Source of the DNA: a virus
Reading direction: 5' to 3' (one strand)
IMG/VR virus record: IMGVR_UViG_3300008116_000055
Coordinates: 163,542 to 227,541 of that record
Length of the DNA: 64,000 nt
Each line of letters starts with the position of its first letter. The stretch's first letter is position 1. This document shows, one piece after another, positions 8,083 through 63,517 of this stretch. The notes beneath the pieces are model-generated. The model was given only the letters and a program-made list of their open reading frames with translations, searched no databases and had not been told where the DNA came from. The translations under genes were made by a program, and so were the position numbers.

Positions 8083-8304
8083 TCATTCGTTTCGTACAAT
8101 ATCTAATAGGTCATTCACAATTTCTTTTTTGGTTAATGAAAGAAGTTGATTACCTCTGAACGACAACAACTTAAAGGTATTCATTCCTTTAATACCTTTT
8201 TCACCCTCTACATAGTAATCCATTTTCCACTTACCCAAATACTTAACATTCCCTATGTGTTTTACATAGTAGACATTACCGATAGTTAGTTTTTCTAAAA
8301 CCAT
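8083..8304 (-). CDS. Small hypothetical protein
   Basis: 73 aa from MVLEKLTIGNVYYVKHIGNV. An upstream in-frame ATG (8325) lies inside the -7 element and is rejected. Predicted small beta-barrel-like sequence with KYLGKWKMDYYVEGEKG, then a helical C-terminus LTKKEIVNDLLDIVRNE. Single-gene unit. Not recognised. Confidence 0.8.
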   Translation of the reverse strand: MVLEKLTIGNVYYVKHIGNVKYLGKWKMDYYVEGEKGIKGMNTFKLLSFRGNQLLSLTKKEIVNDLLDIVRNE

Positions 8305-8322
8305 ATAAATTAATTTAGAACA

Positions 8323-8354
8323 CAAATATAAATCTATATTTTGTATAATCCAAA
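8323..8354 (-). promoter_or_regulatory. Host-type promoter of 8083-8304
   Basis: TTTG (8351-8354), 20 bp, TATATTTG (8323-8330); GCCAAAC box 8373-8379, 42 bp beyond the -7 element. Confidence 0.85.
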
Positions 8355-8426
8355 TTTATTTTTATATTTCTTGCCAAACAAAAGTTATCCTGTGCTGCAT
8401 CATCACCATCTTGGATACTTATTATT

Positions 8427-8558
8427 ATGATAGAAGGGATACTTTATACATTAGGAGTTGAGTTCGTATTAGTCATTATATTGTTTTGTTATGAGTTAAG
8501 AAGACAACTAAAAGAAGATTATCAAGAGAAACCATTTAGATTCTGGGAAGATACATGA
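8427..8558 (+). CDS. Possible single-span membrane peptide, 43 aa
   Basis: Plus-strand frame of 44 codons inside an interval otherwise holding only regulatory DNA. MIEGILYTLGVEFVLVIILF forms a hydrophobic span, followed by a charged tail RRQLKEDYQEKPF ending WEDT. The topology (short N-terminus, one span, basic then acidic tail) is typical of phage membrane micropeptides. No clear plus-strand promoter is visible and all its neighbours are on the minus strand, so it is tentative. Confidence 0.4.
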   Translation: MIEGILYTLGVEFVLVIILFCYELRRQLKEDYQEKPFRFWEDT

Positions 8559-8559
8559 A

Positions 8560-8682
8560 CATCTCCTGGTTGCGCGCAGCCCTCGATTTTGGTTGGCTCG
8601 AACCCAAAGTATTGATTTTATTGGGTTTAGAGTTTGCCAAACAATTTTCACTGTTTGCGCGTAGCTCACCATCAACTTTGGA
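8560..8682. repeat. Intergenic structured module, copy C
   Basis: Outer arms GATTTTGGTTGGC (8585-8597) and GCCAAACAATTTT (8636-8648); inner arms AACCCAAA (8601-8608) and TTGGGTTT (8621-8628) around ATTGATTTTA. Same order as copy B. Confidence 0.75.
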
Positions 8683-8712
8683 GCAATAAAAAACCCCACA
8701 TTTCTGTGGGGT
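8683..8712 (-). terminator. Intrinsic terminator of 8740-9594
   Basis: AACCCCACAGAAATGTGGGGTT on the minus strand followed by TTTTATT. Confidence 0.85.
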
Positions 8713-8739
8713 TCTTATTAATTGAGTACCTAACCAATC

Positions 8740-9594
8740 TTAAACCAACTCAACCAATTCTTTGAAAATTTGACGTTCCCTTTGTCCATAGGTTCCAAAC
8801 ATCTTGTTTTCAGAGTTATCACCTTTACTTAAGGAATGTGTGGTGTACTTAGTAACCCCACTGAACAATCCCCAAAGGTTATCACCTTTCTCTTTTACTT
8901 CACCATTAAGGTCTACGTAGAAACGAGAAAGACGATTACGAGTCACGGTCGACACATCTTTGTCACTATTCAAATCAACATCTTTCATGATATTGAACAA
9001 TGTACGTGTAACCCAATCCTCTTGTTTCTTGGTCATCTTCGTTTCAGAAAGTTTCTTAATGTCTTCGAACATTTCTTTTTCTTCCACGAGTACCCCCTCC
9101 AAACCACGACAGATATCATCGATTCTCATCTCCATGTTTTTGGTGTGACGAATTTTCGCATTCAAGTTACGGAACGCTGCGAAGAATGAATTCTGACAAC
9201 TGATTGTAATATTACTTGGACCGAATGCCAAACTAGTTGACCCATCGAAGGAATTCACACCAGTGATGAAACCCTCAACTCTGTCATTGCCCAATTTCAA
9301 ATCATTTGATTTCAATTGAAGGTATACTTTCTCACCCCCACCAAAGTAACCACCTTTGTGAATTGGTAAACCAACCTGTTGAGATACCTTGTCTAGTAAA
9401 TCAACCATCTGATGATTTTGATAAGGAAAGTAACCATCACCATGTACAGACAAAACAGTGTTTGTGTCCTCACGGATGATTGCTTTACTCTTAGGAACAA
9501 TGATACCACTTTCTGTAGTGATACTTTCTTCTCTTACGGTCCAATTTAGGCCGACTTTGTTGAGAACTTGCTGTGTGCGATTTTCTTGTGACAT
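8740..9594 (-). CDS. DUF932 (phage/plasmid-like) protein
   Basis: 284 aa from MSQENRTQQVLNKVGLNWTV; the longer frame enters the promoter. It carries the hallmarks of the DUF932 family: ILREDTN-like and VHGDGYFPYQNHQMVDLLDK near residues 55-75, GGGEKVYLQLK, then SFDGSTSLAFGPSNITISCQN and a C-terminal NRLSRFYVDLNGEVKEKGDN with LWGLFSGVTKYTTH. The family is widespread on phages and plasmids with no settled function. Single-gene unit. Confidence 0.92.
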   Translation of the reverse strand: MSQENRTQQVLNKVGLNWTVREESITTESGIIVPKSKAIIREDTNTVLSVHGDGYFPYQNHQMVDLLDKVSQQVGLPIHKGGYFGGGEKVYLQLKSNDLKLGNDRVEGFITGVNSFDGSTSLAFGPSNITISCQNSFFAAFRNLNAKIRHTKNMEMRIDDICRGLEGVLVEEKEMFEDIKKLSETKMTKKQEDWVTRTLFNIMKDVDLNSDKDVSTVTRNRLSRFYVDLNGEVKEKGDNLWGLFSGVTKYTTHSLSKGDNSENKMFGTYGQRERQIFKELVELV

Positions 9595-45269: not shown

Positions 45270-46334
45270 CTATTTATCAAATCGTTTAAAAGCATTCATT
45301 GATATGTGATTATATTTAACTCCACCAATAAAATGGTGGAGTTCTTTTTTTCCTGTATAACTCATTGCGGATTTCAAGTAAGATTCAAAATTATTAACCC
45401 ACCCTTGAATGGTGTATTCAACTTGTTGAGTTCTCACAACGCCTTCCGAAGTTGTTAGATTTTCCTTCCCCCAACTCATTTGGACTTCTTTGGTTGACAT
45501 ACCCCTGAAAGTTTTAAATAAACTAATATCTGCGTCAAACATTTCTTTTGTTTCTTTTGAATATTGGTCTACTTTTTCATAAACACTAATCATTGAGGTT
45601 CCAGTTTTTTTACTTGTTTCGCCAGCACTTTCTAAACACTTGTTTAAAATGGAACCTAACATTACAAAATCCGCACCTAGAGCCAACGCTTTGACGACAT
45701 CTGAATATTTTTTAAACCCACCATCTGCCACTATCTGAGTATTAGAAACAAATGGTCTTAAATTTTTAATTTTACGACATTCGGAAATCAGAGATGCCAT
45801 AGGATAACCAACACCTGTTTGGACAGTAGTTAAACACCCATTACCGTTACCAATACCAATTCTTACATAATCCGCACCAACTTTGGCGTATTCATAATAA
45901 GTTTCAGGATTAGCAACATTACCAACCATTAATTTTATGTTTGAATTGTACTTTTGTTTAGCTCTATATGTCATATCTAATAAATCCGACATATGACCAT
46001 TAGCAACATCAATAAGAACCATCATTGGTTGACCTTCAGAATATTCTGTTCTTGTTGATTCTAAAAACAGTTTTTCAAAATCTGACATACTATAAGAGAG
46101 GAAAATATCGCAATCCACCCACGATGAATCGGGGTTTTTGATTCGTGGAAGTACCGGTAGAATACCTTCTTTTTTAAATAAATTAAAATTATTTTTATCA
46201 ACAACCGTATCCATTGGTGCGGTCATTAATGGTAACATACCATTTTTTAATCTACAATTAATTTCACTACGTGAACGAATACTAGATATTATAGTTGGTT
46301 CAATTAATAAATCGTCAAAATCGAACAGTTCCAT
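45270..46334 (-). CDS. GMP reductase / IMP dehydrogenase family enzyme
   Basis: 354 aa TIM barrel. FDDLLIEPTIISSIRSRSEI and LPLMTAPMDTVVDKNNFNLF at the N-terminus; KLMVGNVANPETYYEYAKVG; GIGNGNGCLTTVQTGVGYPM with the catalytic Cys; IVADGGFKKYSDVVKALALG then ADFVMLGS (phosphate site). No CBS insertion, so the length matches GMP reductase and the shortest IMPDHs. Likely interconverts IMP with XMP or GMP to supply purines. Confidence 0.92.
   Translation of the reverse strand: MELFDFDDLLIEPTIISSIRSRSEINCRLKNGMLPLMTAPMDTVVDKNNFNLFKKEGILPVLPRIKNPDSSWVDCDIFLSYSMSDFEKLFLESTRTEYSEGQPMMVLIDVANGHMSDLLDMTYRAKQKYNSNIKLMVGNVANPETYYEYAKVGADYVRIGIGNGNGCLTTVQTGVGYPMASLISECRKIKNLRPFVSNTQIVADGGFKKYSDVVKALALGADFVMLGSILNKCLESAGETSKKTGTSMISVYEKVDQYSKETKEMFDADISLFKTFRGMSTKEVQMSWGKENLTTSEGVVRTQQVEYTIQGWVNNFESYLKSAMSYTGKKELHHFIGGVKYNHISMNAFKRFDK
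45318..45352 (+). terminator. Plus-strand terminator inside a convergent gene
   Basis: Perfect 10-bp stem AACTCCACCA/TGGTGGAGTT with loop ATAAAA, then CTTTTTTT. It lies within the 3' end of the reductase gene and serves the RHH gene on the other strand. Confidence 0.85.
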
Positions 46335-47222: not shown

Positions 47223-48479
47223 ATGTCTGATAATGGAAAAATTTTTATACAGATGGCTGCGTACAGGGATAAAGAACTGTTACCAACACTTAGAGATTGT
47301 ATAGAGAAAGCTAAACACCCCGAAAATCTTGTATTTTCAATTGCATGGCAACATTCACAAGATGATGAGTGGGATAATTTAGATGAATTTAAATGTGACC
47401 CTCGATTTAAAATAATCGATATTAATTATACAAAAGCTAAAGGACCTTGTTGGGCTAGATACATGTTACAGCAACAATATGGTGGTGAACAATATACATT
47501 ACAATTGGATTCCCATCATAGGTTTATTCAAAATTGGGATTCGGAGTTGATAGAGGAATTAACAAAATTACAAGACAAGGGTTATAAAAAACCCATGTTA
47601 ACAGGATATATTCCATCATACGAACCCGAAAATGAACCAAATGGTAGATTGAATGTTCCGTGGAAAATGAATTTTGATAGATTCAGTCCCGATGGTAACG
47701 TACATTTTTTACCATCATCAATCGATGATTTTAAAGAAAGAGTTGAACCTGTCAGGGCTAGATTTTATTCGGCACACTTTTGTTTTACACTTGGACAATT
47801 TGCATTAGAAGTACAACACGACCCTGATTATTATTTCCATGGTGAGGAAATATCAATTTCTGTTAGGGCATATACTCATGGGTACGACCTCTTTCATTTA
47901 CATAGGGTGATTATATGGCACTACTACACAAGAAAAGGTTCAACAAAACAATGGGATGATGACCCTGTATGGCACAAAAGAAACGAATATAGTCACTATA
48001 AAAATAGAAAACTATTTGGAATGGAAGACGATGGGAATAGTATCGATTTTGGTGATTTCGGGTTTGGTAAAAACAGAACATTAGACCAATACGAAAGGTA
48101 TGCGGGTATTTCATTTAGTAAGAGAGCCATCCAAAAATTTACATTGGAATATAATCACCCGCCAAATCCACATATTGAGGACCAAGTTGAGTATGATAAT
48201 TCGTTTACATTCCAATTTAAACATTGTATTGATGTGGGATTCCATGACGTTCCACATGATGACTACACATTTTGGGCTGTAGCATTTTTAGATGAAAATG
48301 ATAATGAAATTTTTAGACAAGATGCTGGTTCTGATGAAATTAAGAGAATGAAGAATGACCCTGATGGGTATTGTAAAATATGGAGGACGTTTGAAACGAC
48401 CGTAAAACCTCATAAATGGATTGTTTGGCCATGTTCCGAAAAACATGGGTTTGGTGAAAGATTAGAAGGAAAACTTTAA
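47223..48479 (+). CDS. GlcNAc-type glycosyltransferase (PF11397-like), copy 1
   Basis: 418 aa. Skp1-type GlcNAc transferase family pattern: IFIQMAAYRDKELLPTLRDC, then WQHSQDDEWDNLDEFK, PCWARYMLQQQYGGEQYTLQ with LDSHHRF (the acidic/His metal site D-S-H), and FYSAHFCFTLGQFALEVQHD then FHGEEISISVRAYTHGYDLF. The C-terminal 120 residues are an extra beta domain. About half of its residues look shared with the next gene. First gene of the long glycan operon; cytoplasmic. Confidence 0.93.
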   Translation: MSDNGKIFIQMAAYRDKELLPTLRDCIEKAKHPENLVFSIAWQHSQDDEWDNLDEFKCDPRFKIIDINYTKAKGPCWARYMLQQQYGGEQYTLQLDSHHRFIQNWDSELIEELTKLQDKGYKKPMLTGYIPSYEPENEPNGRLNVPWKMNFDRFSPDGNVHFLPSSIDDFKERVEPVRARFYSAHFCFTLGQFALEVQHDPDYYFHGEEISISVRAYTHGYDLFHLHRVIIWHYYTRKGSTKQWDDDPVWHKRNEYSHYKNRKLFGMEDDGNSIDFGDFGFGKNRTLDQYERYAGISFSKRAIQKFTLEYNHPPNPHIEDQVEYDNSFTFQFKHCIDVGFHDVPHDDYTFWAVAFLDENDNEIFRQDAGSDEIKRMKNDPDGYCKIWRTFETTVKPHKWIVWPCSEKHGFGERLEGKL

Positions 48480-48489
48480 AATATAAAAT

Positions 48490-49755
48490 ATGGAAAAAAT
48501 ACTAGTTCATTTACCCGCATACAGAGAACCTGAATTAATACCAACAATAAAAAGTGCTTTGGAAAATGCACAATACCCCGAAAGAATACATTTTGGTATA
48601 TGTAGACAATTTAATCCTGATGATGGATTTGATAATGTTGATGAATATAGAGATGACCCAAGATTTAAGATTAAGGACATTCTATATACTGAAGCAAAAG
48701 GACTAGCATATGCTAGGTCGGTAATAAACGAAGAATTATTAACCGATGAAGATTTTGTTTGTCAATTAGACTCACATCATAGATTCTCGGAAAATTGGGA
48801 TTCTAAATTAATCGGGTGGTACAATCAGTTAAAGGAAGAAGGTAATAATCCATTAATTTGTGGTTACCTACCATACTACGACCCTTTCAATGACCCTGAG
48901 AAAAGAGTACAGGAACCATGGTTTTCAAGAGCTGAGTGTTTTTACCCTCACGGTACCATTTTTATACGACCATCAGCGGTCCGTGGTGGGTGGCAACATT
49001 TAACAAAACCATACCCCGCTAGATTCATAAGTGGACATTTTTGTTTTGGTCCGAATAAATGGGCTAAAGAAGTTAGACACGACCCAAATATCTTTTTTGC
49101 TGGTGAAGAGATTAATCTATCAGTAAGGAGTTTTACTTATGGGTATGATTTGTTCCACCCACATGAGGTTGTAATATGGCACGCAACTATGAGAGAAGAA
49201 AGGGCGGGTATGTTGGTTTGGGATGACCAACACAAAAGAGGTGAAGGAACTTGGTGGAAAGGAAATGATATTGCTCGGTCTAGAATTAGACAATTATTAG
49301 GTACAGAAGATAATGGTCACGATTTGGGACCGTATGGTTTAGGTACGGTTAGAACAATACGTGATTATGAAAAATACGCTGGTATACATTTCAAAAAAAG
49401 AGCGTTTCAAAAATGGACCATTGATGATAAATTTCCACCAAATCCTCAATATGAGAATGAAGAAGAATGGGAAAATTCATTTACAAAATCTTTTTATTAT
49501 TTGGTGAATGTTGAAAGACAAGATTTACCTGAAAATGACTATGATTTTATTTTGATAGCGTTTGACGATGAAAATGGTATATCAATGTTTAACAAATATA
49601 TTGACGGACATAATTTAACAAGATTTTTAAATGGAGACGGTCCAATTCATTATGAAGAAATGTTCCATGTGGAAACAGAACCATCTAGAGTGGTTTATTG
49701 GGCACACTCACCTGAAAGAGGTTGGGTAGAAAAAAAACAAATAAATTTAAAATAA
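48490..49755 (+). CDS. GlcNAc-type glycosyltransferase (PF11397-like), copy 2
   Basis: 421 aa, a tandem paralogue of the gene before it. ILVHLPAYREPELIPTIKSA, GLAYARSVINEELLTDEDFV with QLDSHHRFSE, then ARFISGHFCFGPNKWAKEVR and FFAGEEINLSVRSFTYGYDL. Same C-terminal domain. Probably adds a sugar from a nucleotide donor to a protein or glycan acceptor; acceptor unknown. 10-bp gap, co-transcribed. Confidence 0.93.
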   Translation: MEKILVHLPAYREPELIPTIKSALENAQYPERIHFGICRQFNPDDGFDNVDEYRDDPRFKIKDILYTEAKGLAYARSVINEELLTDEDFVCQLDSHHRFSENWDSKLIGWYNQLKEEGNNPLICGYLPYYDPFNDPEKRVQEPWFSRAECFYPHGTIFIRPSAVRGGWQHLTKPYPARFISGHFCFGPNKWAKEVRHDPNIFFAGEEINLSVRSFTYGYDLFHPHEVVIWHATMREERAGMLVWDDQHKRGEGTWWKGNDIARSRIRQLLGTEDNGHDLGPYGLGTVRTIRDYEKYAGIHFKKRAFQKWTIDDKFPPNPQYENEEEWENSFTKSFYYLVNVERQDLPENDYDFILIAFDDENGISMFNKYIDGHNLTRFLNGDGPIHYEEMFHVETEPSRVVYWAHSPERGWVEKKQINLK

Positions 49756-50490: not shown

Positions 50491-51852
50491 ATGGTAAAGT
50501 TAATTATATTTGATTTAGATGGTGTTTTAGTTGAAACAAAAGAACTACATTTTAACACTTTGAATAATGCTCTGAGAGAAGTTGATGAAAAATATGTAAT
50601 AACTTCTGAGGAACATTTATCGATATATGATGGATTAAAGACAACAGAAAAATTAGAGATATTAACTAAATATAAAGGTTTACCTGTTGAATTATATAAT
50701 AAAATTTGGAGAAGAAAACAGGAGCTAACGATTGATGAATTAAATCATTTAGAAAAGGATAATAGACTTATTGAAATATTTAAAGAATTAAAACGTAAAA
50801 AATACAAACTTATATGTTGTTCTAATTCTGTTAGGTCCACATTATTTGTTGTACTTTCTAAATTAGGTTTAATTGAATTTTTAGATTTAGTACTATCAAA
50901 CGAAGATGTTAAAACAGGTAAACCCCATCCTGAAATTTATTGGAAGGGGATAAGTACTATGGGGGTTTTACCTGAGGAGTCTTTAATAATTGAAGATTCA
51001 CCTTACGGTCTTCAATCCGCAAATAGAACATCGGCTCATGTACTTAGAGTTAATAATCCGAATTCATTAACACTTGAAACAATAGAAAAAAAATTGGAAC
51101 AGATTAAAGAAAAAAATAAATTACAGTGGCCGGGTAATGATTTAAATATTCTCATCCCAATGGCGGGTGCAGGAAGTAGATTTCAAAAAGCTGGATTTAA
51201 ATTACCTAAACCATTAATTGATGTTTTAGGTGAACCGATGATAAAAAAAGTAATAGATAGTCTTAATATCCAAGGTAATTACATTTTTATAGTACAAAAA
51301 GAACATCGCGAAAAATACAATTTGGATGTGATGTTAAATTTAATTGTACCTGGATGTAAAATAATAGAAACGGACGGTTTAACTGAAGGTGCCGCATGTA
51401 CAACATTATTAGCCAAAGACTTAATCAATAATGATAGTCCTTTATTGATTGCAAATTCAGACCAATACATTGAATGGGATAGTGTAAACTTCATGTATCT
51501 TATGAATGAGCAATCGTTAGATGGGGGTATATTAACATTTACTGCAGATAACCCAAAATGGTCTTTTGTTAGAACAAATGACACGGGATTAGTGACCGAA
51601 GTTGCTGAGAAGAAACCAATATCCAATCAAGCAACTGTAGGTGTTTATTATTGGGGTAAAGGTTCAAATTACGTAGAATGTGCCGAAAAAATGATTAGTA
51701 AAAATATTAGAGTAAACGATGAGTTTTATGTTTGTCCTGTTTACAATGAATCAATAGAAAATGGTGATAGAATTAAACCATACAATATTCAAAATATGTA
51801 TGGTTTAGGCACACCTGAAGATTTAGAGAATTTTATTAATTTGAAAAAATGA
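50491..51852 (+). CDS. HAD phosphatase fused to nucleotidyltransferase
   Basis: 453 aa. Residues 1-200 are a HAD-family phosphatase (DLDGVLVETKELHFNTLNNA, CCSNSVRSTL as motif II, TGKPHPEIYWKGI with motif III K, IIEDSPYGLQSANRTSAHVL motif IV). Residues 220-453 are a sugar-1-phosphate nucleotidyltransferase: NILIPMAGAGSRFQKAGFKL with PKPLIDVLGEPM, ANSDQYIEWD. So one chain could dephosphorylate and activate sugar phosphates. Neighbour of a second NTase gene (53809). Confidence 0.92.
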   Translation: MVKLIIFDLDGVLVETKELHFNTLNNALREVDEKYVITSEEHLSIYDGLKTTEKLEILTKYKGLPVELYNKIWRRKQELTIDELNHLEKDNRLIEIFKELKRKKYKLICCSNSVRSTLFVVLSKLGLIEFLDLVLSNEDVKTGKPHPEIYWKGISTMGVLPEESLIIEDSPYGLQSANRTSAHVLRVNNPNSLTLETIEKKLEQIKEKNKLQWPGNDLNILIPMAGAGSRFQKAGFKLPKPLIDVLGEPMIKKVIDSLNIQGNYIFIVQKEHREKYNLDVMLNLIVPGCKIIETDGLTEGAACTTLLAKDLINNDSPLLIANSDQYIEWDSVNFMYLMNEQSLDGGILTFTADNPKWSFVRTNDTGLVTEVAEKKPISNQATVGVYYWGKGSNYVECAEKMISKNIRVNDEFYVCPVYNESIENGDRIKPYNIQNMYGLGTPEDLENFINLKK

Positions 51853-52295
51853 TACTGATTTCACATAGAGGAAACATTGATGGTCCCAACGATGTAAGGG
51901 AAAATTCACCATTTTATATTATGGAGGCCATTACCATGGGTTTTGATGTTGAGGTTGATATTTGGTATAAAAATGGTGATTTGTGGTTAGGTCACGACAA
52001 ACCCGAATATAAAACATCAGAAGAGTGGTTAAAAGAAAGAAGTAATAATTTATGGATACATTGTAAGAATGTTGAGTCACTTTGTTTTTTTAATTCTTTG
52101 TCATATAAGTTTAATTATTTTTGGCATCAAGAGGATGTCGTGACCTTAACGTCATTAAATTTTATGTGGGTATATCCAGGAAAACAACCAATAAAAAATA
52201 GTATAGCAGTACTACCAGAAATCTTTAATGATGATATTAAAGATTGTACAGGTATATGTAGTGATTTTATAAAAAAATATAAAGAAGGGAATTAA
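51849..52295 (+). CDS. GDPD/PLC-like phosphodiesterase-fold protein
   Basis: 148 aa. ILISHRGNIDGPNDVRENSP with the HRGN catalytic block, then EAITMGFDVEVDIWYKNGDL (E-x-D metal site), WLGHDKPEYKTSEEWL. This is the N-terminal half of a GDPD-type barrel; at 148 aa it is much shorter than the usual 250, and I recall such short forms in LPS/glycan clusters. 4-bp overlap with the fused NTase gene. Confidence 0.85.
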   Translation: MILISHRGNIDGPNDVRENSPFYIMEAITMGFDVEVDIWYKNGDLWLGHDKPEYKTSEEWLKERSNNLWIHCKNVESLCFFNSLSYKFNYFWHQEDVVTLTSLNFMWVYPGKQPIKNSIAVLPEIFNDDIKDCTGICSDFIKKYKEGN

Positions 52296-53808: not shown

Positions 53809-54498
53809 ATGCAAGTAGTAATATTGGCGGCAGGTCGTGGTACAAGATTTAACGGGTCAGAATTTGATAATCCTAAACCTTTAATAGAATGGGATGGTAA
53901 AACCATGACTAATCACGTAATAGAAAACTTTAAGGGTGATAACGTAAAGATTATTCTAATTAAAAGGGACGAACACCCAATACATCACAAAGATGTAAAC
54001 ATTATCAATATTGATTGGATTACTGAAGGCCCAGCATGTACTGCACATCTGAGTAAAGATATTGTTGACATGGATTCTGAATTAGTAATTGTGAACTGTG
54101 ACCAAATAATTTTAGATTGGGACAAAACGATGTTTTTAAATTTTGCAAGAAACTTTGATGCTGTGATTGGTTGTTTCATTTCAAATAAACCAAATAATTC
54201 ATATGTTAAATTAAATAATGAAAATTTGGTTACCGAAGTAAAGGAAAAAGAAGTCATCTCAAATATCGCAACGAATGGTTTACATTATTGGAAAAAAGCG
54301 AGATATTTTTTTGAATCATTTGAAGAAATGTTCACTAATAAAGATACAACCAATAAAGAATATTACGTCGCACCAACTTATAACTACCTAATTAAAAATG
54401 GGTATAAGGTTGGTATCTTTATGTTTAACCAACATCACCCAATTGGGACACCTGAAGATTTAAAAAAATACCTAAGCATAAAGAAAACACAAATATGA
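53809..54498 (+). CDS. Sugar-1-phosphate nucleotidyltransferase
   Basis: 229 aa. VVILAAGRGTRFNGSEFDNP with PKPLIEWDGKTM (GxGxR nucleotide loop and PKP), TEGPACTAHLSKDIVD, ELVIVNCDQIILDWDKTMFL (NxDQ metal site). MobA-like/RfbA-like fold. Homologous to the C-terminal half of the 50491 protein. Predicted to activate a sugar phosphate for the transferases of this operon. 4-bp overlap with the cupin gene. Confidence 0.9.
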   Translation: MQVVILAAGRGTRFNGSEFDNPKPLIEWDGKTMTNHVIENFKGDNVKIILIKRDEHPIHHKDVNIINIDWITEGPACTAHLSKDIVDMDSELVIVNCDQIILDWDKTMFLNFARNFDAVIGCFISNKPNNSYVKLNNENLVTEVKEKEVISNIATNGLHYWKKARYFFESFEEMFTNKDTTNKEYYVAPTYNYLIKNGYKVGIFMFNQHHPIGTPEDLKKYLSIKKTQI

Positions 54499-54818
54499 AA
54501 ATAACAAAATTTGACGAATACAAAGGTGGATGGTTCATTGGTGATTTTGAGCCTGCCGCGTTTAAAACAAAGGATTTTGAGGTTTGTTTTAAACACCACA
54601 CCAAAGGTGAAAAATGGGACACTCACTATCACAAACAAGGGACTGAAATAAATTACTTGGTTAAAGGTAAAATGATGATACAAAATACCGAATTAAATGA
54701 GGGAGATATTTTTATTCTTTACCCATACGAAGTTGCAGACCCTGAATTTTTAGAAGATTGTACCGTATTAATTGTTAAAACACCATCAGTAAAAGGAGAT
54801 AAATTTATAATACCATGA
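54495..54818 (+). CDS. Cupin-fold protein
   Basis: 107 aa single cupin. CFKHHTKGEKWDTHYHKQGT contains the first His motif (G-x-x-W-x-x-H-x-H), EINYLVKGKMMIQN the strand pair, and ELNEGDIFILYPYEVADPEF the second motif. Candidate role: metal-dependent sugar-nucleotide isomerase or epimerase, or a small sugar oxygenase. 4-bp overlaps on both sides couple it to the NTase and the RuBisCO-like genes. Confidence 0.87.
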   Translation: MKITKFDEYKGGWFIGDFEPAAFKTKDFEVCFKHHTKGEKWDTHYHKQGTEINYLVKGKMMIQNTELNEGDIFILYPYEVADPEFLEDCTVLIVKTPSVKGDKFIIP

Positions 54819-56044
54819 TTAACATATTCACAAAAGATATTGATTTAGAAAAGTACTTTGTTGTTACATACTTTTTAGAATCAAAAACATCATTAAGAGA
54901 GGCTGCATGGAATTTGGCTATTGGTCAAAGTATTGGTAACCCTAACAATAGAAGCGTGTGGGAAACTGAAGAAATGTTTTTGAACCATAGTTGTTTTATA
55001 ATGGAGGATGAAGATTATTTAAAATCTTTAAAAGAAGGTATTGTAAAATTTGCATTCCCATTGTCAAACATTAATTTGGAAGAAGATGGTATTTCACAAA
55101 TACTCTGTCATATAGCTGGAGGTCAAGTAGATATTTTAGAAATTCAAAAATGTCAAATACTAAATGTTGAATTACCTGAAAAAATAGAAGTTAAATTTAA
55201 ATTAAAACCCGCATTTGGTATAGATGGTTTTAGGGAATTTAATGGTGTAAACGGTAAACCTTTTTTTGGTGGTATAATTAAACCCAAAGTTGGTATGTCA
55301 CCTGAAGTTTTGTTAGAAGCCGTAAAAGAAATGGTACAAGGTGGTGTTAACTTCATTAAAGAAGATGAGTTATTAGCCAATCCCGACCATTGTCCTCTTG
55401 AAAAAAGAGTTCCATTAATCACTAATTGGTTAAGAGAAAACGCTCCAAATGTGATTTATTGTTTTTGTATTAATGGTGATAGTCCATATGCACTAGAAAG
55501 AGCAAAATTTGTTTCAGATAATGGTGGTAATGGTATACACATAAATGTTTGGAGTGGATTGGGGGTGTATAGAGCAATCAGAAAACAAAATCCTAATTTG
55601 TGGATACATTTCCAAAAAAGTGGTGATAAATTTTTTACAGATAAAAGAGCACCATTTCACATTTATTGGCCGGTTATCTGTAAAATCGCTGGTTGGTCTG
55701 GTGTTGATTCTATACACGCTGGTATGATTGGTGGTTACATGAATCAAGACGAAAAAGAATTAGAAGATTCTTTAAATGTTTTATGGAATTACAATATTGT
55801 ACCCGCATTAAGTTGTGGTATGCATCCCGGATTGGTACAATACATAAATGAATTGTTAAATAGTTTTGATTGGATGGCTAATGTTGGTGGTGCAATGCAC
55901 GGACACCCAATGGGTACTCTATCAGGTGGTTTAGCTATGAAACAAGCAATTAACAAAGAATTCGACAAAATAGAATATAAAACAGCCATTGAAAAGTGGG
56001 GAAATAAAGAATTTAATCCCGATTTGGCTTACAGATTTTTTTAA
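54815..56044 (+). CDS. RuBisCO-like protein (form IV-type)
   Basis: 409 aa, the length of a RuBisCO large-chain family member. Residues that correspond to the spinach enzyme: FGGIIKPKVGMSPE keeps K156 and K158 (K175, K177); GGVNFIKEDE keeps K182, D184, E185 (the carbamylated Lys and metal ligands K201, D203, E204); FHIYWP has H282 (H294); SIHAGMIGGY has H301 (H327); ALSCGMHPG has S333 (S379); MANVGGAMHGHP has the phosphate glycines. The loop-6 lysine (K334) is a Tyr (Y308), and R295 and N123 appear replaced. So it is likely an enolase, isomerase or decarboxylase on a sugar-derived substrate, not a carboxylase. 4-bp overlap with the cupin. Confidence 0.95.
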   Translation: MINIFTKDIDLEKYFVVTYFLESKTSLREAAWNLAIGQSIGNPNNRSVWETEEMFLNHSCFIMEDEDYLKSLKEGIVKFAFPLSNINLEEDGISQILCHIAGGQVDILEIQKCQILNVELPEKIEVKFKLKPAFGIDGFREFNGVNGKPFFGGIIKPKVGMSPEVLLEAVKEMVQGGVNFIKEDELLANPDHCPLEKRVPLITNWLRENAPNVIYCFCINGDSPYALERAKFVSDNGGNGIHINVWSGLGVYRAIRKQNPNLWIHFQKSGDKFFTDKRAPFHIYWPVICKIAGWSGVDSIHAGMIGGYMNQDEKELEDSLNVLWNYNIVPALSCGMHPGLVQYINELLNSFDWMANVGGAMHGHPMGTLSGGLAMKQAINKEFDKIEYKTAIEKWGNKEFNPDLAYRFF

Positions 56045-56050: not shown

Positions 56051-56749
56051 ATGAGAATATTAATTACAAAATACCATAAAGCCGGTGATGTAATCGGATG
56101 GGAGAATGGAGTCGATAAACTTACAAACGGTGAGGATGTTTATATTGATGTAGAAGAGCAACCAACAACAATACCTGGTTTAAAATTTAAACCTCAAATG
56201 ATTGGTTATGATAATGATAATGAAGATTATTTTTGGAAGTTTTGTACTGCCGAAGTCTCTCAACAAAGTTACGATTTAGTAAAAGAAATCACAAAGGATT
56301 ATATGACACATGGTATATTAGAAATTGGAGTTTCAAGAAATTCTGATGGTTCTTTTTGCCACGCAATGTTGTTTAATAAGCCTGACCACATACCTTATTT
56401 AGGTGTCGATTTAGATGATAAATCTTATTTAAATAACTCATCTAAAAAAATACATACCATTCAAGAAAATTCATATAACCAAGAATTGATTAGAAATTAC
56501 ATGAAAGAAATTGGTATAGATAAAATATCAATTCTTTTTATTGATGGTCACCATTCGGTGAACACAGTTATTAATGATTGGTTATATTCAGATTTATTAT
56601 CTGATAATGGTATTGTTATTTTTCACGACACTAATTTTCATACAGGACCTACAATCTTTATCGAAGCAATTGACAGGAATCAATATGATGTGGTGAAATA
56701 TTTTGAAGAGTATAACGATTACGGAGTGTCTATTGCGTATAAAAAATAA
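56051..56749 (+). CDS. SAM-dependent methyltransferase
   Basis: 232 aa. THGILEIGVSRNSDGSFCHA (motif I E-I-G-V), HIPYLGVDLDDKSYLNNSSK (motif II D), ISILFIDGHHSVNTVINDWL (motif IV with D-G-H-H) then NGIVIFHDTNFHTGPTIFIE. Methyltransf_24-like. The first 75 residues are an additional domain of unknown role. Expected to modify a sugar in this pathway. Confidence 0.88.
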   Translation: MRILITKYHKAGDVIGWENGVDKLTNGEDVYIDVEEQPTTIPGLKFKPQMIGYDNDNEDYFWKFCTAEVSQQSYDLVKEITKDYMTHGILEIGVSRNSDGSFCHAMLFNKPDHIPYLGVDLDDKSYLNNSSKKIHTIQENSYNQELIRNYMKEIGIDKISILFIDGHHSVNTVINDWLYSDLLSDNGIVIFHDTNFHTGPTIFIEAIDRNQYDVVKYFEEYNDYGVSIAYKK

Positions 56750-56752
56750 TTT

Positions 56753-57592
56753 ATGAAAGTAGCGGTTTGTTATTCTGGAATGATTAGAGGGTTTTTAGGG
56801 AATATTGAAAACCACAAAGAATTTTTATTGTCAAAATATGATTGTGATGTTTACCTCAGTTTTTGGGATGTTTATGGATTTGGTTATTTACCATTTTCAA
56901 GATATAAATCTGATAAACACATTAGATTCAACATTGAAGAAAATAAGTGTGAAGTAATTCCAATTATTGAGTCTGACTTGATTAGTGAATCAATTAAAAA
57001 AGAAATAATACATAAATTAAATCCTAAAAATTACATATTTGAATCATTCAAATCATATGAACCAACACTACAAGAAAGGGAAAAACCTTTAATTGAAAAA
57101 TATGAATACAATGAAACAAATTGTAATATCGGTCAACTATTGGCTTGGAATACCTTAGGTGGTTATTATAGAATATACAAATGTGGTGAAATGGTTAAAA
57201 ATTCTAACATTAATTACGATGTTGTTGTTAGAATGAGACCTGATAGTATTTTAGAAAATACGGTGATTTTACAAAAACCGGAAAATAGTATCATATATGG
57301 TAATCAACACGCATCTTGGGGTAATGACACAATAAATGATTCTTTATTATATGGTAATATGGAATCGATGGAAATCTATAGAAATATGCACAATCATTTA
57401 ATAGACATATTTCACAAGACCCAAGGACCCGGTAACGCTGCTGAACATTTATTGTATGTTTATTTAACAAGTATGGGTTTAAAAATAAACAAAGATTTAT
57501 ATGCACCAACACACAGTTATCACAATTATAGAGAAAAAGAAAAGTCTGAAGAATTACAAAATTCAATTTGGTTTAAAGAATTAGGAAAATAA
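56753..57592 (+). CDS. Glycosyltransferase-like CYSGM family, copy 2
   Basis: 279 aa. VAVCYSGMIRGFLGNIENHK, KYDCDVYLSFWDVYGFGYLP, YKCGEMVKNSNINYDVVVRM with RPDS, and LLYGNMESMEIYRNMHNHLI. Same domain plan as 52297 and 57592. The ATG of the next gene overlaps its stop by 1 bp. Substrate unknown. Confidence 0.85.
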   Translation: MKVAVCYSGMIRGFLGNIENHKEFLLSKYDCDVYLSFWDVYGFGYLPFSRYKSDKHIRFNIEENKCEVIPIIESDLISESIKKEIIHKLNPKNYIFESFKSYEPTLQEREKPLIEKYEYNETNCNIGQLLAWNTLGGYYRIYKCGEMVKNSNINYDVVVRMRPDSILENTVILQKPENSIIYGNQHASWGNDTINDSLLYGNMESMEIYRNMHNHLIDIFHKTQGPGNAAEHLLYVYLTSMGLKINKDLYAPTHSYHNYREKEKSEELQNSIWFKELGK

Positions 57593-58395
57593 TGAAAGTT
57601 GCTGTTTGTTATTCTGGTATGTTGAGGGGATTTGAAGATTTTATAAAAAATCATCATGACTTTTTATTGTCAAAATATGACTGCGATATCTACTTGAATT
57701 TTTGGGACGTATATGGGTATGGTGTTCAACCATATTCTAAGTATACATCCAAAAATCATTATCGATTTACAGGATTTCATGGTGAAAATAAAAATAAAAT
57801 CGAAGTCATACCAATAACAGAATCTGAATTAATAGACGATGAAACAAAAGATAGGATAATATCAAAACTAAAACCAAAAGATTTTGTTTTTGACTCATTT
57901 GTTTCAATGGAGCCATTTTTTGAAGAAAAGGAAAAATATTTTTACAAAAGGTGGGATTTAGATTCTATGAGTTTGCAATTACCATCACTATTAATGATGA
58001 ATGTCATGGGAATGTATTATCGAATATATAAATGTGGTGAAATGGTACAAAATTCTGGTGTAAAATATGATATTGTTGTTAGAAATAGGACTGACACGAC
58101 CTTTACAAGCGAATTGATTTTACAAAAACCCGAGCCAAATACAATTTACACTAATTCAGTACAATCTTGGCCCGAAGCAGTAAATGATACACTACTTTAT
58201 GGTAACATGGATGTAATGTGGAAATATCAAAAAATGTATCTTGATTTATTTTCACTTTGGGATGAAGTGGCGGTGTGGAATTCTGCAGAACATTTATTAT
58301 ACAAGTATTTAAAGACAAACAATTTTATAATAAATTCAGATTTGTCAATGATGACACATAATGAGAATACATACAAACTAAGGAAATCGAAATGA
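57592..58395 (+). CDS. Glycosyltransferase-like CYSGM family, copy 3
   Basis: 267 aa. VAVCYSGMLRGFEDFIKNHH, KYDCDIYLNFWDVYGYGVQP, YKCGEMVQNSGVKYDIVVRN with RTDT, LLYGNMDVMWKYQKMYLDLF. Closer to copy 2 than to copy 1. 4-bp overlap with the next gene. Confidence 0.85.
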   Translation: MKVAVCYSGMLRGFEDFIKNHHDFLLSKYDCDIYLNFWDVYGYGVQPYSKYTSKNHYRFTGFHGENKNKIEVIPITESELIDDETKDRIISKLKPKDFVFDSFVSMEPFFEEKEKYFYKRWDLDSMSLQLPSLLMMNVMGMYYRIYKCGEMVQNSGVKYDIVVRNRTDTTFTSELILQKPEPNTIYTNSVQSWPEAVNDTLLYGNMDVMWKYQKMYLDLFSLWDEVAVWNSAEHLLYKYLKTNNFIINSDLSMMTHNENTYKLRKSK

Positions 58396-59303
58396 ATTTT
58401 ATAAATAGACTATTCAATAATAAAAATGATAAAGACATGATTCAAAATTTGAGATTTTTAATTAATACTCATGATAAAAACTTGTCTTTAGCGGAATTGT
58501 CTTTAAAACATTTTTTTAAACATAATAAAAGAGATGATTTAAAAATAACAATTGTAAGTAATAAATTTAATACGGAAGATTTAAAATATTCCGATAAAGT
58601 CACATATTATAGTAGTAATATTAACTTACATTGTCAAGGATATCATTTTAAAGAAACTATGCTTAGTGCTTTAAAAGAAATAAGTGAGGATTACATTTTC
58701 TTTTTATTAGATGATTATTTTTTTATTGAAGAAATAAAATACCATGATTTAAACGATGCATTGAATTTAATTAAATGTGAAAATATTGACTATTTTGGTT
58801 TTGATGATATTGGTGGTATTTTAAAACTTAGCGATTTTGAAAAATTAAATAGTTCTTGTGAAAGTAATATTAAGGATGAACTTTATTTAAGACATAAGGA
58901 TTATCAATATTTGTTTAGCGTACAACCATGTATTTGGAAAAGAAAATCACTAATTGAATTATTGGAAAGTCATGAAAATATATCATTACATGATTTGGAT
59001 GAGACGAAACCATATATTAGAGAGTCCGGTTTAAAATTTAAAAGTACAATGTCAGGATTAAGGTCCTGTTTTGATTATGCTTTTAATATTGATTTACAAA
59101 AAAGACCTGATGATTATTATATTATCGCATACACTGAGATAGTAAGACACGGGTGTTTTAACATACCTGAAAACGGTAAACCAGTAAGTCCAAATGACTA
59201 TAGTGTAAGATTTACATATAACTTAATTGAAGAGGAGGATTTGGGTAGTAAAAAAGAATTTAGACACCTGTTACCACCTTCTCTACACAAACTAAACAAT
59301 TAA
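58392..59303 (+). CDS. Glycosyltransferase family 2-like
   Basis: 303 aa. NLRFLINTHDKNLSLAELSL start of a GT-A fold, KITIVSNKFNTEDLKYSD, EDYIFFLLDDYFFIEEIKYH (D-D motif), FSVQPCIWKRKSLIELLESH. Metal-binding DD is present. Donor and acceptor unknown. Confidence 0.83.
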   Translation: MNFINRLFNNKNDKDMIQNLRFLINTHDKNLSLAELSLKHFFKHNKRDDLKITIVSNKFNTEDLKYSDKVTYYSSNINLHCQGYHFKETMLSALKEISEDYIFFLLDDYFFIEEIKYHDLNDALNLIKCENIDYFGFDDIGGILKLSDFEKLNSSCESNIKDELYLRHKDYQYLFSVQPCIWKRKSLIELLESHENISLHDLDETKPYIRESGLKFKSTMSGLRSCFDYAFNIDLQKRPDDYYIIAYTEIVRHGCFNIPENGKPVSPNDYSVRFTYNLIEEEDLGSKKEFRHLLPPSLHKLNN

Positions 59304-59304
59304 A

Positions 59305-60251
59305 ATGAAAGTAACTTGTTATTTTGAAAGAGGTGCGTTACATTGGTCTAATATCAGTGCACATAATTTTGTTTATAACAAATTGGTGGAGATGTATCCT
59401 GAGATTGAATTTAATGCGGTACACACCGCGTGTGATATAATCACACAACCTGATGGTTCCCAACAATCAATGAGAAGTTATACAAACTATACCGGACCCG
59501 CTTGTAGATATGGTCCTTTTTGGATGGTTATTCAAAACGTAGAAAACAAAAAATATTTCGTTGTTTCATATTGGGACAAATTAAATGATTTTTTTCACAC
59601 CAACTGGGATACAGAAAACTGTGTTGAGATTTTTACAAGTATTGGGTTACATAAGGACGACATTTTTTATAAAAAACTTGATTTACCATATACTCCAACT
59701 TCCTTTGTTGGTTCTACTTTGGAAAATGAAAGAAGAATTGAAAATCTATATTCTAATAGGTTATCAATGAACAAGACCAGTATTATCGATAAGACAAAGA
59801 GGAAATTAGGTCTACATAATATAAAAGATTCTTATGGTAGGTTGTATCCTGATAAATTAATTTTTAGAGGTTATACTTACCTTTTTAGAAAACACTTAAT
59901 TAATGACAGTAGATTTGACATTAGAGTGGATAAAGTAGATGAACCAACCTATTTAAGTGAATTAGATTCCTATGCTTTAAATTTTAGTCCAAATGGTGCC
60001 GGTGAAATATGTTTTAGAGACTTTGAAATTATGGGTTTAGGTTCCGCACTGTTTAGACAAAAGTTAGGTGTGGAGTTTCACAATAAATTAATACCAAACT
60101 ACCATTATATATCGTTGAAGAAGTTAAAGGTGATTATGATTTTATTGACTTTGTTGCGGAAAATGGTAGAAAATGGTACGAGGAAAACGGTACCGCAGAA
60201 AAAAACGCAGAAATAATTGTAAATCTAATTGATTTTAATAAAATTAAGTAA
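59305..60251 (+). CDS. Glycosyltransferase-like protein, frameshifted near its 3' end
   Basis: The zero frame (59305-60216) gives 303 aa whose last 40 residues are lysine-rich nonsense. From 60111, shifted by one base, the sequence continues IVEEVKGDYDFIDFVAENGR, KWYEENGTAEKNAEIIVNLI to a stop at 60251, a typical C-terminal helix of glycosyltransferases. The intact protein would be about 315 aa. The middle ALNFSPNGAGEICFRDFEIM resembles the nucleotide-binding end of GT-B enzymes. So the gene is either broken by a 1-base indel, or the sequence has an error here. Placed in the glycan operon. Confidence 0.8.
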
Positions 60252-60302
60252 ATAGACCATTTATTTTCAGACTAAAAATTATTAAATTTTGAAAAAATAC
60301 TT

Positions 60303-61136
60303 ATGAATAACCCAAATATTGTTGTCACATTTACCACAATACCTTCAAGATTAATCAGTAATCACCAATTCGACATGAGATATTGTTTGGATTCGTTGTT
60401 AAATCAATCCTATGAGGGAGAATATGAGGTACATCTAAACATTCCATATGTTTGTAAAAAAATAAACACTGAGTACGTTATACCAGAATGGTTGACAGAA
60501 CTTGAAACTTCAAACAAAAGATTAAAAATTTTTAGAACCGAAGACTACGGACCACTAACAAAATTATTACCAACTTTAGAGAGAATTGAAGAGGATGAAA
60601 CTATAATTATTGTTGTTGATGATGATTTGGTTTACCATTCGGATATGGTAAAAGAACATGTAAACAATCAAAGTAAATGGTTAGATTCTCCTGTTGGGTA
60701 TGATGGTATGCGTTCTAGAAATGAAGACGGAACTTTTTCAAATTTCTTTGGTGACACGAGGGACCATTATTACTCAGGTACTCACAGAGATTCCAGAGTT
60801 GATATTCTACAACATTACAAAACAATCTCGTACAAAAGAAGATATTTTGGTGACGACTTTAAGGAGTTTGTTGAAAAATATTATACATGGAACGATGACC
60901 TTTTTGTTTCGGCGTATTTTGCGAGTAAAAAAATTGATAGATACACCACATATTATGAAAACGATGTGGTTTACGGACCTTATGATGAATGGTTAGCAAA
61001 TGTTGGTAAAACATTCCCATTAATTCAAAGTACACATCACGAATCCATTGAAGGGTGTAACCTTTTTAGGAGAGATAACGATGATGATAATTCTTCACAA
61101 TTATATAAATTCATCGATTCAGGATATCAAAAATAA
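60303..61136 (+). CDS. GT-A glycosyltransferase
   Basis: 277 aa. IVVTFTTIPSRLISNHQFDM, CLDSLLNQSYEGEYEVHLNI, FRTEDYGPLTKLLPTLERIE (D-Y-G-P substrate loop), IIIVVDDDLVYHSDMVKEHV with the DDD metal site. C-terminal half YYTWNDDLFVSAYFASKKID completes the fold. Donor unknown. Preceded by a 51-bp gap after the frameshifted gene. Confidence 0.88.
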   Translation: MNNPNIVVTFTTIPSRLISNHQFDMRYCLDSLLNQSYEGEYEVHLNIPYVCKKINTEYVIPEWLTELETSNKRLKIFRTEDYGPLTKLLPTLERIEEDETIIIVVDDDLVYHSDMVKEHVNNQSKWLDSPVGYDGMRSRNEDGTFSNFFGDTRDHYYSGTHRDSRVDILQHYKTISYKRRYFGDDFKEFVEKYYTWNDDLFVSAYFASKKIDRYTTYYENDVVYGPYDEWLANVGKTFPLIQSTHHESIEGCNLFRRDNDDDNSSQLYKFIDSGYQK

Positions 61137-61144
61137 TAAAAAAC

Positions 61145-63517
61145 ATGCTAGGTAATTTACACAAGATAATGTCATTTGAAAATAAAATGGTAGAACCAAC
61201 TATCATTGATTCAAATCAAATTGAAAAATTAGTACACGGATTATTAAATGTACACGAAAATAATATTGAAGGTGATGTAGTTGAATTTGGTTGTTTTGTT
61301 GGTGAGTCATCAAAATACCTTATGAAAACGTTAGTTGAATTAAATTCAAATAAAAAACTATACGTTTACGATTCATTTGAAGGGTTACCTGATTTAACCA
61401 AATGGGAAGAAAATAGTGGATGGAGAGCAGGAACATTGAAAACAAGTGAAGAGGTTCTTATTAGTAATTTTGAAACAAATGGTTTACCGTTACCTATAAT
61501 TCATAAGGATTGGTTTTCAAATGTTCCTCAGGAAAATATACCTGAGAAGATATCTTTCGCTTTTTTAGATGGAGACTTCTATAATTCAATATACGATAGT
61601 CTAAGTAAAATTTATGACAAAGTTGTTGATGGTGGTTTTATTTTCTTTCATGATTATAAAAGACCTGACTTACCAGGTGTTGATGCGGCGATAAGAGATT
61701 TCTTACAAGAAAGAGGTTTAGAATACCATGTGATAGAGGTTACAAACCAAGTAGGTTTAATGATTAAAAATAGACAAAACCTAAACGTAGAAGAAATATT
61801 TCCAGGTAAAAAAACATTTGAACCTAATAAAAATTTAACAATAGTTACAGGATTATGGAATATTAATAGAGTTGGTAGACCTTTTGACCACTACATAACT
61901 CATTTTAAAAAATTCTTGGAGATACCTCAAAATTTATTCATTTACATCCCTAAAGAGTATGTGGACATGGTTTGGGAGGTTAGAAGTAAAGAAAACACTT
62001 TTGTTAAAATTTACGAACTTGACGATGTTAAAAATCTTTATGCACCATTTTGGGATAAAACTCAAGAAATTAGAACAAGTCCTGAATGGTTAAGTTTAGC
62101 GGGTTGGTTACCGGAATCACCACAAGCAAAATTAGAATGGTATAATCCAATTGTACAATCCAAAATGTTTATGTTACATGACGCATCAATTTGGAATCCT
62201 TTTGGTACTGAATATTTCTTTTGGTTAGATGCCGGAATCACTAACACAGTTCCAAGTACTCATTTAATTGAAAATAATGTTCTTCATAAATTAACCGATT
62301 TTGGTAACCCGTTTTTATTCTTAAGTTATCCATATGAAGCAGAAAACGAAATACATGGTTTCAAATTTGATATGATGAATGAATTATCTCACGACACTGT
62401 TAAATACGTTTGTCGTGGAGGATTGTTTGGTGGACATAAAGACCAATTACACGAGGCGAATTCAACTTATTATCCAACTTTAACAAGGACATTGAATGCA
62501 AATTATATGGGAACCGAAGAAAGTATTTTTACTATCATGTCCTATAATGAACCACACATCTATAAAAGATATGAATTAGATGCAAACGGTTTAATTGGTA
62601 AATTCACACAAGCGATTATTGATAATAATGTAAATCTTACAGTATCGGATAAAATTAAACCTCAAACAAATGTAAAAAAATATACAGATAATGATGTTAG
62701 TAATTATAAAACTAACTTATATATTTTAACATTCAATTTTCCCGAACAGGTTTTACATACCATATCATCTATGGAAAAAACACCTGATTGGTTAAATAGA
62801 CCTCATTTAGTACTGTTAGATAATTCAACCACCGAAGAAGTTAGAGAACAAAATAGAGAAATTGCTCAACGTTATAATTTCGAGTATATTAGTTTAGGTG
62901 GTAATACTGGAATATGTGGTGGACGACAAGCAGCTGCGGAACATTTTCATGAATCAGATGCGGACTTTATGTTTTTCTTTGAAGATGACATGACGGTAAA
63001 TCCACCCGAATACGAAGGTCAATTCTGTAGAAATGGTTTTAGAAAATACATACCAAATCTTTACAATTTATTACATAGAATAATGTTAAAAGAAGAATTT
63101 GATTTTTTGAAACTAACGTTTACTGAAGTATATTTTGATAACGATAAACAATGTTCTTGGTACAACGTGCCTCAACACGTTAGAACAAAATATTGGCCAA
63201 ACTATGATAAATTACCGGTTAGTGGTTTAGACCCTAATGTACCTTTAACCGATTTTAAAAATATTAGAGTTATGGATGGATTATCATATATAGATGGTGA
63301 CATATATTATGCTAACTGGCCAATGATTGTGAGTAAATCAGGTAATCAAAAAATGTTTATTGATGTAAAATGGGGACACCCTTTTGAGCAAACTTGGATG
63401 TCTCATAATTTTCAACAAACAAGAGAGGGTTCTTTAAAACCGGCGGTTTTGTTAGCATCACCAATTTGGCACGATAGGATTAAACATTATAGTGCTAGTG
63501 AAAGAAGAGAAAATTAA
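61145..63517 (+). CDS. Three-domain protein: methyltransferase, HtrL/YibB-like, GT-A
   Basis: 790 aa. Residues about 35-215: TylF-type methyltransferase (EGDVVEFGCFVGESSKYLMK, YVYDSFEGLPDLTKWEENSG, ISFAFLDGDFYNSIYDSLSK, GGFIFFHDYKRP). Residues 230-500: HtrL/YibB-like putative transferase (LTIVTGLWNINRVGRPFDHY, EYFFWLDAGITNTVPSTHLI, VKYVCRGGLFGGHKDQLHE). Residues 520-790: GT2-like (LYILTFNFPEQVLHTISSME, DADFMFFFEDDMTVNPPEYE with ED-D). One chain could therefore methylate and add sugars. Last gene of the operon. Confidence 0.9.
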   Translation: MLGNLHKIMSFENKMVEPTIIDSNQIEKLVHGLLNVHENNIEGDVVEFGCFVGESSKYLMKTLVELNSNKKLYVYDSFEGLPDLTKWEENSGWRAGTLKTSEEVLISNFETNGLPLPIIHKDWFSNVPQENIPEKISFAFLDGDFYNSIYDSLSKIYDKVVDGGFIFFHDYKRPDLPGVDAAIRDFLQERGLEYHVIEVTNQVGLMIKNRQNLNVEEIFPGKKTFEPNKNLTIVTGLWNINRVGRPFDHYITHFKKFLEIPQNLFIYIPKEYVDMVWEVRSKENTFVKIYELDDVKNLYAPFWDKTQEIRTSPEWLSLAGWLPESPQAKLEWYNPIVQSKMFMLHDASIWNPFGTEYFFWLDAGITNTVPSTHLIENNVLHKLTDFGNPFLFLSYPYEAENEIHGFKFDMMNELSHDTVKYVCRGGLFGGHKDQLHEANSTYYPTLTRTLNANYMGTEESIFTIMSYNEPHIYKRYELDANGLIGKFTQAIIDNNVNLTVSDKIKPQTNVKKYTDNDVSNYKTNLYILTFNFPEQVLHTISSMEKTPDWLNRPHLVLLDNSTTEEVREQNREIAQRYNFEYISLGGNTGICGGRQAAAEHFHESDADFMFFFEDDMTVNPPEYEGQFCRNGFRKYIPNLYNLLHRIMLKEEFDFLKLTFTEVYFDNDKQCSWYNVPQHVRTKYWPNYDKLPVSGLDPNVPLTDFKNIRVMDGLSYIDGDIYYANWPMIVSKSGNQKMFIDVKWGHPFEQTWMSHNFQQTREGSLKPAVLLASPIWHDRIKHYSASERREN

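Follow-up and report, generated by a model that had tools for sequence, protein, structure and literature searches.

The phage glycan operon and its RuBisCO-like gene

The window analyzed in this study is a stretch of 64,000 nt from a 232,626-base IMG/VR virus record (IMGVR_UViG_3300008116_000055; record positions 163,542 to 227,541). Genes for a tail sheath, DnaB helicase, RNR, UvsX-like recombinase, DNA polymerase and thymidylate synthase are present on the record beyond the window, and an endolysin gene is present inside it; the source of the record is therefore a large tailed phage. ARAGORN found no tRNA in the window and L231-L236 (184 kb of the record).

A glycan operon on the plus strand is headed by two GlcNAc-family glycosyltransferases (47223-49755; PF11397, 3e-72 and 7e-48). 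An IMP dehydrogenase/GMP reductase-like gene (45270-46334, minus strand; PF00478, 1.8e-43) lies immediately ahead of the operon. Among the plus-strand genes that follow its head are a beta-phosphoglucomutase-like HAD fused to a second nucleotidyltransferase (NTase; 50491-51852) and, directly after it, a GDPD-like minimal TIM-barrel protein of 148 aa (51849-52295; PHROG 34507). A sister module, which likewise includes the GDPD-like protein, has this HAD-NTase fusion as its front end. About 2.5 kb downstream of the latter, an NTase of 229 aa with an RmlA/MobA-like fold (53809-54498; PHROG 3980; Pfam NTP_transferase, 1.3e-8), a cupin of 107 aa (54495-54818; PHROG 24762) and a RuBisCO-like protein (RLP) of 409 aa (54815-56044) are found in that order. 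A SAM methyltransferase-like protein (56051-56749; weak Methyltransf_24 match) is encoded 3' of the RLP, and the plus-strand genes at 56753-63517 encode putative glycosyltransferases, a fusion protein and proteins of unknown type. The fusion (61145-63517, 790 aa) joins a TylF-like methyltransferase, HtrL_YibB and a GT2 glycosyltransferase. The preliminary description of this DNA had the cupin, RLP and methyltransferase genes all overlapping, which is slightly overstated: NTase and cupin, and cupin and RLP, overlap by 4 nt each, whereas a 6-nt gap separates the RLP stop from the methyltransferase start.

The RLP reading frame begins with ATG and encodes a full-length protein of the RuBisCO superfamily. 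It matched PF00016 (RuBisCO_large) with 110.7 bits against a gathering score of 30.1 (1.1e-31), while the N-terminal domain PF02788 scored slightly under its cut-off (17.9 versus 20.7). About 100 RuBisCO and RLP sequences from the PDB matched the protein, the best being form III (2cwx, 1.6e-33) and RLPs. An AlphaFold2 model (pLDDT 92.9) was used in a Foldseek search. The leading matches, with 3nwr first (E 2.5e-28), were all full-length alignments to RuBisCO or RLP chains, with TM scores of about 0.8 for the best of them. Comparison with five homologues gave dN/dS values of 0.04-0.07, a ratio that is approximate at dS above 1.6 and that indicates purifying selection; a chance reading frame is therefore excluded. 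By its profile score above the gathering threshold and by its fold, the protein is a member of the RuBisCO large-chain superfamily, and the full-length superfamily protein proposed earlier at this position is thus upheld.

Relatives of the RLP were found at 89 viral loci in IMG/VR by a single-sequence scan and at 317 by a profile scan, with identities of 49-100% within the aligned set. No RLP match was obtained in INPHARED or among PHROGs, and no complete RuBisCO was found among the BFVD viral structures, which gave partial TIM-barrel matches only. The sole cellular match was on a contig of a Patescibacteria MAG (L081; JAHJQJ010000031.1), where genes for the GDPD-like protein, the cupin and the RLP are consecutive (7248-9164) and a divergent NTase lies amid glycosyltransferases. 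Glycosyltransferases and transposase-like genes abound on this contig. The L081 RLP nests inside the phage clade, with 98/93 support together with the RLP of L079, a position that suggests acquisition by transfer, for which phage to cell is the simplest direction. The genomes were scanned with patterns derived from the window sequence, so that more distant bacterial relatives would escape detection. Among 380 Patescibacteria genomes the GDPD-like family was present in one only, and the GDPD-like protein had no match among plasmids. These results show that the RLP clade is mainly phage-borne.

Active-site residues and phylogenetic position

Residues of the window RLP were mapped against form III, form I and other references, and the family was represented by an alignment of 49 divergent members. 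The protein keeps K156 and K158 of the KPK motif (K175 and K177 in reference numbering), the carbamate and Mg site K182, D184 and E185 (K201, D203 and E204) and H301 (H327). Phosphate-site residues are also kept, namely S333 (S379), G335 (G381) and G358/G359 (G403/G404). Residues needed for carboxylation are replaced: K334 by Y308, N123 by G103, H294 by Q267 and R295 by K268. Further replacements are H298 by D271, T65 by N42 and W66 by P43. Across the 49 members these positions show little or no variation, and the pattern is unlike that of every reference form compared. A MAFFT reading of E60 and N123 as glutamine was rejected; the ungapped alignment places G37 and G103 at these positions, with Q38 and Q104 adjoining them.

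Judged from the alignment, the clade retains the enolizing half of the active site, whereas the other half, responsible for CO2 binding and placement of the carboxyl group, is lost. The metal-site residues and the altered loop-6 lysine (tyrosine), N123 and R295 positions pointed out in the preliminary description were all confirmed. Its expectation that the protein should not fix carbon also agrees with the G, Q, K and Y found in place of N123, H294, R295 and K334, read in the light of the established RuBisCO mechanism.

Phylogenetic analysis of 46 sequences (IQ-TREE, LG+C20), including 23 phage-type RLPs, placed these 23 on one side of a 100/100 branch whose stem measures 1.76; forms I, II/III and III and the apionate/OiaX group all fall outside it. 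As the references did not contain the IV-DeepYkr, IV-Photo and IV-GOS groups, a clade of its own is meant relative to the references used. MtnW formed one long branch of unsure position. Model scores on the window RLP were far below the respective cut-offs for the MtnW NCBIfam equivalog (84.8 versus 513.6 bits), OiaX (NF042437; 113.2 bits, 1.2e-32, versus 700 bits) and form III (TIGR03326; 152.9 versus 497.45 bits). As regards the R. rubrum-type RLPs (IV-DeepYkr), RLP2 of R. palustris (2qyg) matched the RLP family profile at only 3e-27. An mtn neighbourhood was not found either, as no family besides the NTase, the cupin and the GDPD-like protein is recurrent around 88 distinct RLPs. Assignment to the form I-III carboxylases fails both on N123, H294, R295 and K334 and on the tree grouping. 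A grouping with forms I-III or with the methionine-salvage enolases, named beforehand as the outcome that would speak against the proposal, was thus not observed at the level of sequence, and nothing ties the clade to MtnW. On sequence grounds the window RLP is classed as form IV (RLP) in the broad sense, that is, as a superfamily member that lacks the carboxylation residues and lies outside forms I-III.

Comparison with form III RuBisCO (2cwx, 8dht; TIGR03326) revealed likeness in the best sequence matches, a TM score of about 0.83, the carbamate/Mg site and the KPK motif. The window RLP differs in having about 27% identity (Foldseek) and replaced carboxylation residues, and in its setting, a glycan operon rather than the AMP pathway. 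The OiaX/apionate RLPs (NF042437; plasmid RLPs L217-L230) are, like the window RLP, non-carboxylating superfamily members of similar length; they differ in forming a separate 100/100 clade, in keeping R295 and K334 and in having a four-carbon acid sugar kinase alongside.

Conserved partners and alternative front ends

Neighbours of 88 distinct RLPs were clustered all against all. Redundancy was removed by exact RLP identity only, so the counts do not represent independent events. Only four families recur: the RLP itself, the NTase (79 of 88 loci at domain level), the cupin (within 6.5 kb of 72 RLPs) and the GDPD-like protein (71 loci); the next family reaches 27/88. Of 87 viral contexts, 52 show the recognized genes in the exact order NTase-cupin-RLP-GDPD, and 66 have the cupin directly upstream of the RLP. 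In most relatives the GDPD gene follows the RLP, whereas in the window it follows the HAD-NTase fusion and the NTase-cupin-RLP order is intact. The methyltransferase seen in the window belongs to a cluster present at 25/88 loci and is not a constant partner. At one locus, L005, the RLP is accompanied by the GDPD-like protein, with neither cupin nor NTase nearby. The first labels had suggested a HAD phosphatase (the gene at 50491) as a constant partner; this was rejected after a recount by domain, which gave a plain NTase at most loci and the HAD-fused NTase at 7/88. Conservation of the NTase, cupin and GDPD-like protein with the RLP at 70 or more distinct loci bears out the earlier proposal of a phage glycan operon with a link to nucleotide sugars.

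In the window cupin H44, H46 and E51 are invariant, and the closest solved structure to the NTase is the generically named 4evw (6e-33). In the GDPD-like protein H6-R7-G8, E35, D37 and H49 are invariant (HRG, E-x-D and HD type). Its AlphaFold2 model (pLDDT 97.4) predicts an unusually small TIM-type barrel. The profile match to the GDPD 7e0v is weak (1.9e-4), no GDPD match or other family was obtained in Pfam, and Foldseek gave no match below 0.001, only weak ones to TIM barrels and GDPDs. The 148-aa protein recurs beside nucleotidyltransferases in phage glycan operons (window 51849-52295; L131-L135; L237-L372).

Homologues of the cupin (44% identity) were found in the isolated cyanophages Bellamy and SynMITS9220M01. 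There the gene order is HAD, PfkB-like kinase, NTase-RpiB fusion, cupin and GDPD. When the cyanophage cupin served as query, another 80 loci were recovered, almost all of them with the NTase-RpiB layout; among 59 distinct RpiB loci, fusion with the NTase and presence of the cupin were each observed in 57. RpiB interconverts aldose and ketose forms of pentose phosphates, and its FCRTGQG motif, which presumably includes the catalytic cysteine, is kept in the one copy inspected. The cyanophage set of NTase-RpiB, PfkB, HAD, cupin and GDPD is probably a nucleotide-sugar pathway. The cyanophage and RLP cassettes share the homologous cupin, GDPD, NTase and glycan-operon setting and differ in that RpiB and the PfkB kinase are present where the RLP cassette has the RLP. 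RLP and RpiB occurred together in 1/108 RLP loci (L005), in separate divergent operons, and an absolute mutual exclusion of the two was accordingly rejected. The NTase-RpiB fusion with PfkB, HAD, cupin and GDPD is seen in Synechococcus phage SynMITS9220M01 (L132:5775-6932) and in about 70 IMG/VR loci, and the cassette is annotated in cyanophages merely as 'phosphatase' or hypothetical.

Scans based on the GDPD-like protein, which are independent of the RLP, revealed several layouts. The commonest was HAD-NTase with GDPD and without RLP (48 loci), followed by tandem NTase with GT61, class II aldolase and GDPD (31 loci), cupin with RLP (11 loci) and HAD, cupin, NTase and GDPD (2 loci). Among the loci fetched, RLP and cupin occurred together in 11, RLP only in 1, cupin only in 3 and neither in 121 (Fisher 9e-13, for loci that are not fully independent). 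From these layouts and this co-occurrence it follows that NTase and GDPD are the constant core, that the front end is variable and that presence of the cupin distinguishes the types with RLP or RpiB. The tandem nucleotidyltransferase layout, with GT61, class II aldolase, a PNKP-like HAD and GDPD, is represented by cyanophage S-SM2 (L135:3388-7444) and 31 loci. Phosphonate chemistry was considered for the S-SM2 neighbours and rejected, since Pfam identifies them as GT61 and class II aldolase.

Proposed function and relation to known systems

We propose, at a probability of roughly one half, that the RLP is a Mg2+- and carbamate-dependent ketose-phosphate isomerase or epimerase that supplies the NTase with a sugar for phage-directed glycans. 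The ketose phosphate, most simply a pentulose 5-phosphate, would come from host central metabolism. The RLP would form an enediolate and re-protonate it elsewhere, so that the carbonyl is shifted relative to the phosphate; the cupin may work on the same intermediate or on the next one. The NTase would then activate the rearranged sugar phosphate to an NDP-sugar, and transferases of the operon would attach it to a surface glycan of the virion or the host envelope. Since the RLP keeps the Mg/carbamate enolizing site, it could carry out an enediol(ate) rearrangement related to that of RpiB, which stands in its place in the cyanophage cassettes and points to isomerization rather than to branching or decarboxylation. 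Replacement of the P1-site residues T65, W66 and K334 implies a ligand that differs from RuBP in a manner beyond what sequence can tell.

Both steps have precedents. In R. rubrum the RLP converts methylthioribulose-1-P by isomerization and a cupin enzyme takes over what it makes, an example of RLP and cupin paired on pentulose phosphates (PMC4958253), and a nucleotidyltransferase activates a ketose phosphate directly in the conversion of fructose-6-P and CTP to CDP-6-fructose (PMC10918830). Compared by description, the R. rubrum RLP resembles the proposed phage enzyme in its cupin pairing, absence of carboxylation and pentulose-phosphate isomerization, and differs in its methylthio substrate, its methionine/isoprenoid shunt and the absence of NTase and glycan genes. 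A wider proposal, that the mainly phage-spread clade makes an unusual nucleotide-activated glycan sugar as a ketose-phosphate isomerase and functionally replaces RpiB, kinase and phosphatase together, is tentative and falls a little short of even odds. Two observations count against the isomerase model. The PfkB and HAD of the RpiB cassette are absent from most RLP cassettes, so the exchange does not match gene for gene and the two sets could act on different sugars; and L005 has the RLP and GDPD with no cupin or NTase nearby. More speculatively, a HAD of beta-PGM type, the RpiB-PfkB-HAD set and the RLP may be three front ends that each yield a sugar 1-phosphate, which the RLP would reach by a 1,3-isomerization of the R. 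rubrum type with no ATP spent.

Other substrates must be weighed against the ketose-phosphate isomerase. Action after the NTase, with the RLP and cupin as epimerase or isomerase of an NDP-ketose, would suit the gene order NTase-cupin-RLP-GDPD and the fact that nucleotide sugars are substrates of many cupins. We consider it unlikely, as the cyanophage substitute RpiB belongs to enzymes acting on sugar phosphates, phosphorylated sugars are the known substrates of the RuBisCO family, and S379, G381, G403 and G404 of the phosphate site are kept. The branched or decarboxylated sugar suggested in the preliminary description would call for an OiaX-like decarboxylase of a 3-oxo sugar-acid phosphate, whose shortened or branched product is then activated. 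The apionate type is a well-characterized RLP group, the top Foldseek match 3nwr is a solved RLP that we take to be of this type, and the OiaX model gives 1.2e-32, if far under its cut-off. The clade is nevertheless separate on its stem of 1.76, outside the OiaX/apionate group; H294, R295 and K334, kept in OiaX, are replaced; and the four-carbon acid sugar kinase and the usual dehydrogenase of the sampled apionate-type loci are not among the recurring families. With RpiB as the cyanophage replacement, this part of the description is not sustained, and such a decarboxylase appears distinctly improbable.

A methylthio- or deoxy-pentulose phosphate from MTA or 5'-deoxyadenosine salvage, with the cupin completing a methionine-salvage shunt, would reproduce the RLP and cupin arrangement of R. 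rubrum (PMC4958253). Further salvage enzyme families do not recur nearby, however; the RLP is constantly accompanied by a nucleotidyltransferase within a glycan operon, cyanophages carry the cupin and GDPD families with RpiB instead, and the MtnW cut-off is far from reached, all of which make this substrate very improbable. Superfamily membership and a viral rbcL reported elsewhere to be active with rbcS (PMC12615777) could be taken to favour a true CO2-fixing viral RuBisCO serving as an auxiliary carbon-fixation gene. With tyrosine, glycine, glutamine and lysine at K334, N123, H294 and R295 across the clade, its position outside forms I-III and no recurrence of other Calvin-cycle families in the neighbourhood, this is scarcely credible.

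To our knowledge, RLP roles known so far are salvage or catabolic (methionine salvage, degradation of apionate and sugar acids). If the ketose-phosphate isomerase is correct, the chemistry of the RuBisCO superfamily would reach into glycan building through a large clade linked to nucleotide-sugar synthesis, and biosynthesis of glycan precursors would be a new biochemical role for it. With RLP and RpiB trading places beside an unchanging cupin, NTase and GDPD, the cassette would form a small four-enzyme pathway open to direct test. Such a clade would also caution against reading every 'rbcL' auxiliary gene called on viral contigs as concerned with carbon fixation.

A phage RLP in a glycan operon had been put forward as undescribed, which is right only in part. 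Viral RbcL and RbcL-like proteins are on record: a landfill-virus RbcL was placed on a tree among RbcL-like proteins and reported as an AMG (PMC12607003), in addition to the active rbcL noted above (PMC12615777). The landfill gene is likewise a viral RuBisCO homologue, compared here by description, and the available text of neither paper describes the RLP cassette or, for the landfill gene, a glycan cassette. A literature search on RLPs with glycosyltransferases, limited to sources other than subscription papers and preprints, returned papers that by title and abstract concern other subjects. No earlier description of the cassette and clade was found, and their novelty is provisional. The GOS study reported 65 RuBisCO homologues from marine metagenomes that lie outside the known forms, with source organisms and function unassigned (PMC1821046). 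Compared by description, N123 is non-conserved in these groups as in the phage clade, whereas K177 and H327 are variable there and conserved here; some of the GOS homologues could belong to the phage RLP clade.
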